A stretch of DNA of 35,648 bases from Chloroflexota bacterium (lineage in GTDB: Bacteria; Chloroflexota; Anaerolineae; Anaerolineales; UBA4823), in NCBI GenBank assembly GCA_030611505.1, contig JAUWPO010000007.1, positions 1 through 35,648 on the forward strand, read 5' to 3'. Below the pieces are notes generated by a model. It was not told the DNA's origin. It ran no database searches and saw only the letters and a list, made by a program, of their open reading frames with translations. This document shows positions 1 through 2,572 of this stretch, piece by piece. The position numbers and the translations under genes were made by a program. Within the stretch, counting starts at the first letter, position 1; each line of letters begins with the position of its first letter.

Positions 1-48
1 AAGGTAAAAAGCGAGGACCTAAAAAGGATTCTTGACAGTTTCTTTTGA
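1..48 (+). CDS. C-terminal end of an unidentified ORF truncated by the window edge (KVKSEDLKRILDSFF*)
   Basis: Frame 1 is open from base 1 to TGA at 46-48 and the peptide looks protein-like; too short to identify. Confidence 0.3.
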   Translation, partial: KVKSEDLKRILDSFF

Positions 49-59
49 TCTGGTATAAT
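32..59 (+). promoter_or_regulatory. sigma70-type promoter driving the recombinase leader RNA
   Basis: TTGACA (32-37), 16-bp spacer, TATAAT (54-59); both hexamers are perfect consensus. Confidence 0.8.
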
Positions 60-65
60 TATCTT

Positions 66-222
66 AAGACAGGATATTTATAACCCTAGAGACGGCCCGT
101 GTTAGTGCGCTAACCATCGCACGAGCCTGACCCAACCCACCGGGAATGCGGAGGATTGGGCTGGTAAACATTATACCAACCAATATTCATGCGCCCTGGT
201 GGGATTCATCGGGGCGTTTTCG
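66..222 (+). ncRNA. structured leader RNA / small RNA upstream of the serine recombinase
   Basis: Begins about 7 nt after the -10 box and ends at an intrinsic terminator. By eye: stem GGC-CGTG...CACG-GCC (94-127, inner GTTAG/CTAAC), CCCAA/TTGGG (131-135/156-160), TGGTA/TACCA (162-166/174-178). Confidence 0.55.
192..220 (+). terminator. Rho-independent terminator between promoter and recombinase start codon
   Basis: CGCCCTGGTG-GGATT-CATCGGGGCG: 10-bp continuous stem (two G-U) followed by TTTTCGTTT. Confidence 0.75.
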
Positions 223-336
223 TTTATCAGATTTTCATACATGAATAAATGCCCCAATAACAAAAGGTGCGCCAAAGATGTGGAAGGTTGGCATCTAACG
301 AAGCCTTCCCCAATTGAAAGAAAAGGAGTGAAAGGT

Positions 337-1971
337 ATGAGTAAAAGAGCAGCAATTTATGGAAGAGTTTCAACCGACTTGCAAAGAGGAAATTATTCTA
401 TTCATACCCAAATATCTGAATGTCTGAAGTATGCTAATACGCGCGATTACCCAATAGTGGGTGATTTATTTGTTGATCCTGAAACAGGGAGAGACGCAGA
501 CTCGGGCAATGGAGCAGTTCGGGCTTTTGTGGACGACTTTTCGTCAAGGGAGCTTTCCCGACCTAGTCTTGATGCCGCGTTTGATTTTTTAGAAAACGTT
601 GGTTTTGACGTTCTAATTGTTCATTCACTGGATAGGCTTGCTCGCGATCCTTATATTCGCGAAACATTAGAACGCGACCTGATTTCCAGAGGTGCGAAGG
701 TAGAGTACGTACTTGGGAATTATGAGGAATCTCCCGAGGGCGAAGTTAGAAAAGATTTGGATGCTACCTTCGCAAAGTGGGAGAACCTTAAACGAGTTGA
801 ACGATCCACCCGGGGAAAGCTACGTAAAGCTGAGAGTGGAAAGTTTGTAAGCGGTCGTCCACCTTATGGTTACCAATATGAAAAGAATTCACCTTCTGGA
901 TTGGTAGCTATCGACAAAGAGGCGGATATAGTAAAAGAGATTTTCCGCCTTTATGTTGAAGAAAAATTTTCAATTAGAGGAATTACTGAAATACTAACAA
1001 AAAGGAAAATCCCCACAAAAATGGGTGGGGGAAAATGGGGTAAGTCAACAGTGCCGAAGATATTACGTAACTCCACCTACGTTGGACGATGCTACTACAA
1101 CAAGCATAAACGTGACGGCAAACATCTTATCGTGCGTAGCAAAGACGAATGGATTGAGATAGAAACACCTAGAATTGTTGATGAATGGATTTTTGAAGAA
1201 GCACAGCAGGTGCTTGCGCTGAATAGGAAATTAAAACGCAAGCAACCCTCCCGCTTCTATCTCTTATCTGGAATGGTGTTTTGTGAAAGCTGTGGACGTC
1301 CTTATATTGCACAAACCGCGAAAGCTGGTAAGCATGGACGAGTTAATGATGCCCAATCATATCGGCATAGGGTAATAGAAGGACATTGTATTAACCGAAT
1401 GATTTCAGCCAGGAGACTAGAACCATTAGTTTGGGATGAAATTGTAAGCATATTGCTTGAACCAGAAAGACTAAGAGAAGGTTATAAAGCGTCAATTGAA
1501 CAGCAGAAGAACACCCATGCCAGGGAAATTGCGCATTTAGAATCATTGCGTAAGGCATTTGTCCACTGTAAGGAAGAGCGTAATAATTTGACAGCTCTTT
1601 ATATTGATCCTGAAATTAAGATAACGAGAATGGAGTACATTGAGCAAAAAACCAGGATTGATGATGAAATCAAACGAATCAATAATGATATTGAAATAGT
1701 AGAGAAAAGAATTCCTAACGTGCCACTTCCGGGTGATTTCGATAACCTTGATACTTTCGCTTCGAAGATTAGGGAACGATTATTTGATGCTCGAAAAATT
1801 AAACCCGAGGATAAAAGAAAAATTCTAGAATTGCTTCATGTAAAAGTAATTCTAGGAACGGATTCGAGTATACGATTAGAAGGGTGGTTTGGCAAAGATA
1901 GTGACTGGCTATCGTCTACAACATCAAAACGTTATGTGAACCCGCCGAGGCGACTTCCAGGGCGCGTTTGA
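337..1971 (+). CDS. large serine recombinase (resolvase domain + recombinase domain + zinc-ribbon + coiled coil), integrase of a mobile element
   Basis: Start set at ATG 337 behind AAAAGGAGTGAAAGGT; the ORF-track start at 199 lies inside the terminator hairpin. Motifs: AAIYGRVSTDLQ, LIVHSLDRLARD, FCESCGRPY zinc-ribbon half-site. Confidence 0.93.
   Translation: MSKRAAIYGRVSTDLQRGNYSIHTQISECLKYANTRDYPIVGDLFVDPETGRDADSGNGAVRAFVDDFSSRELSRPSLDAAFDFLENVGFDVLIVHSLDRLARDPYIRETLERDLISRGAKVEYVLGNYEESPEGEVRKDLDATFAKWENLKRVERSTRGKLRKAESGKFVSGRPPYGYQYEKNSPSGLVAIDKEADIVKEIFRLYVEEKFSIRGITEILTKRKIPTKMGGGKWGKSTVPKILRNSTYVGRCYYNKHKRDGKHLIVRSKDEWIEIETPRIVDEWIFEEAQQVLALNRKLKRKQPSRFYLLSGMVFCESCGRPYIAQTAKAGKHGRVNDAQSYRHRVIEGHCINRMISARRLEPLVWDEIVSILLEPERLREGYKASIEQQKNTHAREIAHLESLRKAFVHCKEERNNLTALYIDPEIKITRMEYIEQKTRIDDEIKRINNDIEIVEKRIPNVPLPGDFDNLDTFASKIRERLFDARKIKPEDKRKILELLHVKVILGTDSSIRLEGWFGKDSDWLSSTTSKRYVNPPRRLPGRV
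1900..1930. mobile_element. attachment-site junction (attL/attR) of the recombinase-bearing element in comM; element lies to the left
   Basis: comM-coding similarity (minus strand) ends at CATAACGTTTTGATGTTG (1919-1936), where the recombinase 3' end begins. Confidence 0.75.
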
Positions 1972-2572
1972 CGTGCTCCTGCCCCTTGATCTCACTGAAG
2001 TCGGTCTGGACACTTACGGGCAGGTCCTCGGGATTAACCGCTGGCTGCGGCGAGATCAGTTCCACTCCCCTGAGATGTTTAACAAGATCTACCAGAGAAG
2101 GCACCGCAATTACTTCCATGCCTGGGATCAAGCCCGCTTCGGGAGCATCGACTTCGGGAACAAGAATGCGTTTAAAACCCTGATCGCGGGCAACGGCTGC
2201 CATAGGCAGTACCCCGCGAGCGTGGCGCACGCTGCCGTCTAATGAAAGTTCACCGATCACTAATGAGTCGGATGCCGCGTCTGGCGGGAGTAAGCCGTGC
2301 ATGATAAGAACTCCCAGGGCGATGGGCAGGTCGTAAGCGGGACCTTCCTTGCGCACTGCTGCAGGAGCTAAGTTGACAATTATTCGTTTACGGGGATATG
2401 GCAGACCGGCGTTCTTGATGGCAGCCTGGACGCGCTCGCGGCTTTCCTGCACAGCGGCGTCCGGGAGACCGACGATGGTCATGCCGGGTAAACCCTGCCC
2501 GGTGTCCACTTCGACCTCGATGATCTCGCCTTCTAACCCGATCACGGCGCAGGAATAAACGCGCGCTAACAT
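1916..2572 (-). pseudogene. comM: ComM/YifB Mg-chelatase-like protein, N-terminal 218 aa only, interrupted by element insertion
   Basis: MLARVYSCAVIGLEGEIIEVEVDTGQGLPGMTIVGLPDAAVQESRERV...KGQEHVKRALEVASAGSHNVLML then immediate TAG; the expected GPPGSGKT P-loop and AAA+ domain are missing. Confidence 0.9.

Follow-up and report, generated by a model that had tools for sequence, protein, structure and literature searches.

RNA-OUT of IS10 is an antisense RNA of a transposase. Asr9 of ISPpu9 is also an antisense RNA of a transposase (PMC8450116). In plasmid pIP501, the antisense RNAIII and the repR attenuator are accompanied by a small DNA-binding repressor, CopR, and the sense promoter carries an inverted repeat (PMC4981023). 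In this study, we analyzed a stretch of 35,648 nucleotides (contig JAUWPO010000007.1, assembly GCA_030611505.1), hereafter the window, which begins with the leader and the gene of a large serine recombinase of an integrative element. The nearest named recombinases come from metagenome-assembled genomes (MAGs) of Chloroflexi, and on this basis the host was placed in the phylum Chloroflexota, which has little experimental RNA biology. What is known of how serine recombinases are silenced in integrative elements concerns mainly protein repressors and directionality factors.

Positions 32-336 probably form a transcription attenuator that is controlled by a predicted antisense RNA. This view draws on features read from the sequences of the window and its relatives, namely the conservation of the leader, the selected strand of each hairpin, the signature of an antisense promoter, the sense terminator, an alternative pairing and a hypervariable loop. 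The features are listed in Table 1.

Table 1. Features of the recombinase leader and gene in the window.
Feature	Position	Strand	Details
Sense promoter of the recombinase leader	32..59	+	TTGACA 32-37, 16-nt spacer, TATAAT 54-59; 12/12 consensus matches
Imperfect inverted repeat, probable repressor operator	54..82		12-bp arms, 2 mismatches, 5-nt spacer; over -10 and start
Predicted antisense (counter-transcribed) RNA, ~75 nt	88..162	-	+1 A opposite T162; 3' end approximate, around 88
P1, predicted terminator hairpin of the antisense RNA	94..127	-	Plus-strand arms GGCCCGTG / CACGAGCC; 9/13 pairs with changes on both sides
Specificity hairpin A:B	131..160	both transcripts	CCCAACCCACCG / CGGAGGATTGGG; covariation
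Segment A, 5' half of putative antiterminator	136..144	+	CCCACCGGG
Hypervariable loop of hairpin A:B, presumed kissing site	143..148		GGAATG in the window
Predicted extended -10 of the antisense promoter	170..178	-	TGGTATAAT; ATTnTA conservation, TG extension, spacing to +1
Intrinsic terminator of the sense leader	192..220	+	Stem 192-216, then TTTT 217-220
Segment C, 3' half of putative antiterminator and most of terminator 5' arm	195..203	+	CCTGGTGGG
Large serine recombinase, controlled gene	337..1971	+	Pfam PF00239 (Resolvase), PF07508 (Recombinase), PF13408 (zinc ribbon)
TTGATG common to both ends of interrupted comM, likely crossover region	1922..1927	-	

Distribution and novelty of the leader RNA

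A DNA search detected two copies of the leader, both in a single complete genome from the same order and each before a different serine recombinase. With a covariance model built from three sequences, 64 places were recovered from 47 of 400 genomes of the order, along with additional copies from the family of that complete genome. Among 396 genomes of the class, a model built from 61 distinct sequences matched leaders in 59; among 400 genomes drawn from the phylum it did so in 20, two of them outside the class. Low-scoring matches of the first round (L094-L096, L098 and L115) were removed by eye as chance or degenerate. About 130 homologous leaders across the order, the class and the phylum keep the promoter, the terminator and the alternative pairing, and they represent more than 100 related mobile elements. 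By profile search, a serine recombinase is present in 111 of the 135 loci examined. It lies downstream on the strand of the leader in nearly all of them; in L131, the best-scoring recombinase is upstream.

Taken alone, the window leader is hardly conspicuous. Promoter-like and terminator-like sites, as a class, are about as numerous in it as in the background, and its single-sequence fold is only moderately unusual (z -2.9). Chance is ruled out because the homologous leaders are conserved and their hairpins covary strongly. An earlier examination of the window from its letters alone, here called the sequence-only reading, had proposed a structured leader RNA acting as an attenuator of the recombinase. 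It had named three findings that would speak against it: a lack of conservation or covariation in homologs, a match to a known RNA family, and an independent promoter before the gene. All three were looked for and none appeared.

Searches of Rfam 15 at the gathering score gave no match in the window, and the leader scanned alone gave weak sub-threshold matches only; with E values up to 10 there was nothing relevant in the leader. At the gathering score, 18 distant loci returned tRNAs only. The RNA, which the sequence-only reading could not assign to a family, thus has no match there either. A 6S-like RNA had been the first guess from the fold, and it was dropped since no relevant Rfam match was obtained. 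Plasmid and phage collections contained no match to the RNA. In viral contigs, a search with the full core as an exact pattern gave no match; a shorter pattern gave seven, all attributed to chance and none recognised by the covariance model. In a literature search that did not reach most subscription journals, no description of a serine recombinase under antisense attenuation came to light. The leader RNA is a new RNA family and probably uses a variant of a known mechanism, and its covariance model marks such elements.

Two exclusive structures in the sense leader

The -10 of the window sense promoter is preceded by TG, and equivalent promoters are present upstream of many relatives' leaders. 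Base 1 of the window is the contig end, and the sequence further upstream is missing. An AAGGAG precedes the recombinase ATG. No further plus-strand promoter-like site was seen between the terminator and the gene (225-336), a region that includes the place (225-330) suggested earlier for an independent promoter.

Between this dedicated promoter and the recombinase, the sequence-only reading had put a terminator/antiterminator switch. Its coordinates for the promoter, the terminator and the 9-bp pairing all agree with the sequence, and the switch is conserved in the homologs. The alternative pairing CCCACCGGG/CCUGGUGGG, read directly from the sequence, has nine pairs including one G-U. In the alignment of the 61 distinct sequences, 94.6% of cells are paired in A:C, which is almost invariant; one compensatory change occurs in L056 (CCCATC / GATGGG). 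The RNAalifold consensus fold is also A:C. Of the distinct copies, 94% of the close and 78% of the distant ones have a sense terminator at the expected place, compared with 10-11% of random windows from the same loci. In the equilibrium fold of the window leader, A:C has a probability of 0.98 and the terminator 0.01, and the terminator reaches 0.98 once the segment covered by the antisense RNA is blocked. The leader would thus combine, like other attenuators of the pT181/pIP501 kind, a sense terminator with an antiterminator that excludes it and draws on the segment covered by the antisense RNA; support for this antiterminator from the distant copies is modest.

A variant arrangement was noted by eye in L118, L121 and L132, where the B segment CAAGCGG is the same as the terminator 3' arm. 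This sub-lineage seems to form the antiterminator B:C instead of A:C, following the same logic with different wiring. The pairing of leader and terminator is significant in L118 and L121.

Strand of selection and the predicted antisense RNA

The hairpins of the leader are well supported by covariation. In the same alignment, P1 and the terminator have 88.4% of cells paired and 12 pairs changed on both sides, and none of 500 shuffles paired as well. Hairpin A:B has 84.8% of cells paired; its stem in distant copies displays 4-6 standard pair types per position, with loops mostly of 5-7 nt. The stem CCCAA (131-135) / TTGGG (156-160) described by the sequence-only reading is present. The loop CCCACCG that it took to be free is not, as the CC.CCG part pairs with GCGG.GG at 148-154 and the true loop is at 143-148.

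A pair that is a C-A mismatch in the RNA of one strand becomes a G-U wobble in that of the other, and the ratio between the two shows which strand is selected. P1 has 64 C-A against 14 G-U in close copies and 67 against 3 in 49 distant copies, in which the stem was chosen without strand preference. For hairpin A:B the counts are 41 against 4 in close copies, where 17 of the 41 C-A cells come from one column pair in which a bulge disturbs the alignment, and 23 against 7 in distant copies. The terminator displays the opposite bias, with 82 G-U against 3 C-A (36 against 0 in close and 29 against 8 in distant copies by an unbiased count), and so does A:C, with 48 G-U against 10 C-A. Both 5' hairpins are therefore selected on the minus strand, and the terminator on the plus strand. 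The search models scored plus-strand pairs, so the selection of matches is biased against the minus-strand result for P1 and A:B. Folding energies follow the same partition. For the region from P1 to +1, all 80 distinct copies have the more stable fold on the minus strand, by 10.6 kcal/mol on average; for the terminator region, 65 of the 80 have it on the plus strand. In the window, the minus strand of the antisense region folds into two clean hairpins with -35 kcal/mol (z -2.7), and the plus strand reaches -26 (z -1.1).

The motif ATTnTA, which reads TAnAAT on the minus strand, was found in 127 of 132 homologs with a variable third hexamer position, as in -10 boxes. A TG stands one base upstream of it (TGnTAnAAT) in 47 of 80 distinct copies. 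The triplet GCT ends 6 or 7 nt before ATTnTA in 76 of the 80, while the stretch between them is unconserved; this fixed distance places the antisense +1 A at a normal distance from the -10. Judged by its signature, a promoter for the antisense RNA appears to lie inside the leader and to transcribe towards the sense promoter, as is the case in attenuators of the plasmid type. Outside P1, a run of A (4 or more in 8 nt) is present in 57-65% of the relatives compared with 16-20% of the background, and would usually supply the U-tract expected of an antisense terminator. The predicted antisense RNA would thus possess hairpins, a recognition loop and an intrinsic terminator of its own, the last being weak in the window copy.

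These results bear on two other explanations. The leader could be an attenuator by itself, in which a riboswitch ligand, a small helix-turn-helix (HTH) protein or the recombinase binds the RNA and no antisense RNA takes part. The terminator, the antiterminator and the dedicated promoter would all be explained in this way, but we consider it improbable, given the minus-strand selection of the 5' hairpins and a near-invariant ATTnTA with the spacing and degeneracy of a minus-strand -10; a ligand site would also not carry a hypervariable apical loop. It is very improbable that the hairpins are features of the DNA, such as an att site, an oriT or protein-binding repeats. Although they are palindromic and reside inside mobile elements, the strand-specific bias between C-A and G-U, the U-tract and the promoter spacing are not expected of DNA sites, and the likely crossover of the window element is at the other end of the recombinase gene. 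An attenuator with a minus-strand RNA thus remains the preferred reading. Of the lone structured leader proposed earlier, the switch holds and the lone part does not, as selection on its 5' hairpins acts on the minus strand and a conserved putative promoter on that strand precedes them. The alternative offered at that time, a stand-alone small RNA of ~150 nt, was right in that a small RNA is probable, though one of about half that size (~75 nt) and on the opposite strand.

Variation of the loop

Among 103 pairs of RNAs that are less than 10% different outside the loop of hairpin A:B, 43% of loop positions differ, compared with 4.9% elsewhere. Outside the loop, the RNAs of L043 and L049 agree at all 121 positions, and inside it 3 of 7 positions differ. 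The loop does not follow the identity of the recombinase: L062 and L067 have near-identical recombinases (3% amino-acid difference) with 2 of 7 loop positions changed, and L036 and L046 have the same loop with recombinases 62% different. The same loops also recur on different RNA backbones. The uncoupling of loop and recombinase is at odds with a target guide and agrees with a recognition tag of the kind that plasmid antisense RNAs have. A guide resembling the IS110 bridge RNA, whose variable loop would select the target, would account for the occurrence of an RNA with a hypervariable loop ahead of a recombinase; we nevertheless hold it to be extremely improbable, since, besides this uncoupling, the window loop was not seen by inspection at the junctions of the interrupted host gene comM. 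Serine recombinases are, to our knowledge, not known to use guides.

Under the preferred reading of an antisense-controlled attenuator, we suggest tentatively that the loop may be a tag for self-recognition. The antisense RNA of a resident element would silence an incoming recombinase with the same loop and spare one with a different loop, and loops would diversify under such pressure. Recombinase pairs with less than ~17% difference at third codon positions have 13 of 56 loop positions changed (~23%), against ~10% at third positions, these pairs being few and related. Co-resident copies gave no signal of avoiding shared loops: one of 48 pairs shares a loop where 0.56 would be expected, which does not support the tag. 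If the suggestion is true, such loops would be the plasmid incompatibility groups, or the superinfection immunity, of integrative elements. The antisense-controlled attenuator itself predicts that exchange of the 6-7 nt loop should alter which element silences which.

Proposed model of attenuation

In the proposed mechanism, RNA polymerase would start at the consensus sense promoter. A second layer of control may act here through the operator-like palindrome over the -10. Among 62 distinct upstream regions from relatives, 69% have an inverted repeat scoring at least 9, compared with 0% of shuffles; the window has a weaker version with a score of 6, and the HTH gene of its element, if present, is beyond the contig end. 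As the leader emerges, segment A would pair with segment C before the 3' arm of the terminator exists, and transcription would read through into the recombinase. When transcripts ending just after C were folded, the probability of A:C exceeded 0.5 in 58 of 61, and the antiterminator would therefore form first during transcription. The minus-strand promoter would meanwhile produce a short antisense RNA with two hairpins. The loop of its first hairpin would meet the same loop of the nascent leader, and the resulting duplex would occupy A and free C. The terminator could then fold, and transcription of the recombinase would end early. With more copies of the element there would be more antisense RNA and less recombinase.

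Several observations weigh against this account. At equilibrium, most relatives are in the terminator state even without the antisense RNA (median 0.97), so that simple equilibrium switching was rejected as a general explanation and replaced by folding order, on which the default read-through depends. Pairing between the terminator arm and the leader in distant copies is 0.53 compared with 0.35 for shuffled leaders, with 9 of 39 at q <=0.05; this modest excess is suggestive of an antiterminator there, not strong. The antisense terminator of the window has a poor U-tract, GTCTCTAGG, and its antisense RNA may be longer or weaker than predicted. Moreover, the search models contained the ATTATA columns and the base pairs, which inflates the apparent conservation, and close copies are not independent of one another.

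Some of the data would also suit an antisense RNA that is real but acts mainly in another way: it could interfere with transcription, or it could block the downstream operon at the level of translation or stability, and the terminator would merely insulate the antisense promoter. No terminator was found in several distant copies (12 of 80 distinct ones), the first downstream gene varies (ParM-like, HTH, DUF2637, FtsK or recombinase), and the A:C equivalent is not conserved in sequence in distant copies. We regard this as unlikely, because the sense terminator is strongly retained under plus-strand selection and the A:C complementarity is nearly invariant in close copies. For antisense-controlled attenuation, we infer that both RNAs are made and pair with each other, that the folding order holds in the cell, and that the recombinase is attenuated with an effect on excision or copy number.

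Mobile elements and their insertion sites

The element interrupts comM just before the Walker A motif. The N-terminal half is at 1916-2572 (-) of the window and the C-terminal half at 5168-6121 of L176 (G000:C180), and both break at HN-x-LM. In L005, an Anaerolineales MAG with a related recombinase, the N-terminal comM sequence ends at the same place, GGHNV. The special link to comM assumed by the sequence-only reading was not upheld, as the same RNA occurs with recombinases up to ~70% different and one group is located in another gene.

Recombinases 35-70% different in amino acids can share an RNA that is identical outside the loop, and the RNA therefore moves between elements as a module. 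RNAs identical to the base were observed across genomes of different genera (L036-L040 and L099; also L043, L044, L047, L048, L050 and L102). The L036 group occupies the same position in one homologous host gene of several species, a sign of recent site-specific spread. A second, divergent copy of the RNA is present in the genome of the window, near tRNA genes (L157:4501-4627, -), with no recombinase found within 4.5 kb downstream; it was recovered with the model of 61 sequences.

In close relatives the gene order is an HTH gene (~71 aa, Pfam HTH_17), the leader, a gene of ~80 aa without Pfam match, and the recombinase. The conserved ~80-aa protein is encoded about +50 to +290 after the RNA in most close relatives (L036-L087 and others), and is a candidate directionality or control factor; the window has no such gene between the RNA and the recombinase. 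A conserved protein of ~210 aa is encoded divergently upstream, roughly from -2000 to -550 on the opposite strand, in many close relatives (L036, L042, L063 and others). It has predicted membrane segments and a common C-terminal region RRGRxPTY...RW...W. In distant loci, genes for ParM-like actin, DUF2637, FtsK or HTH proteins may lie between the leader and the recombinase, and a primase gene ahead of the leader. These neighbours indicate that the elements are integrative and plasmid-like.

Relation to known systems

The bridge RNA of IS110 is similarly a structured non-coding RNA with a variable loop beside a recombinase. The loop described here differs from it in tracking neither the recombinase nor the target. 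IS110 recombinases belong to another family, of DEDD/serine-catalytic tyrosine-free enzymes. Asr9 of ISPpu9 and RNA-OUT of IS10 resemble the predicted RNA in that a small RNA limits synthesis of the element's own recombination enzyme. Both act on the mRNA or its translation and not by induced termination, and their enzymes are transposases, not large serine recombinases.

The closest likeness is to the attenuators of pIP501 (Inc18) and of pT181 (RNAI/repC), in which a counter-transcribed RNA lies inside the leader and a terminator competes with an antiterminator in the sense leader. CopR of pIP501 and its promoter repeat are paralleled by the ~71-aa HTH gene upstream of the leader in relatives and by the palindrome over the -10. 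The palindrome overlaps the -10 here and is upstream of the -35 in pIP501, and the antisense RNA is predicted at ~75 nt compared with 136 in the plasmid. The controlled gene is a replication initiator in pIP501 and pT181, and a large serine recombinase or other gene of an integrative element here. The window region would work like these attenuators and is not a member of the two plasmid families, because it has a recombinase operon as its target and resembles them neither in sequence nor by Rfam. A widespread antisense-RNA attenuator of this kind would bring RNA copy-sensing, so far a plasmid device, to the control of recombinases.
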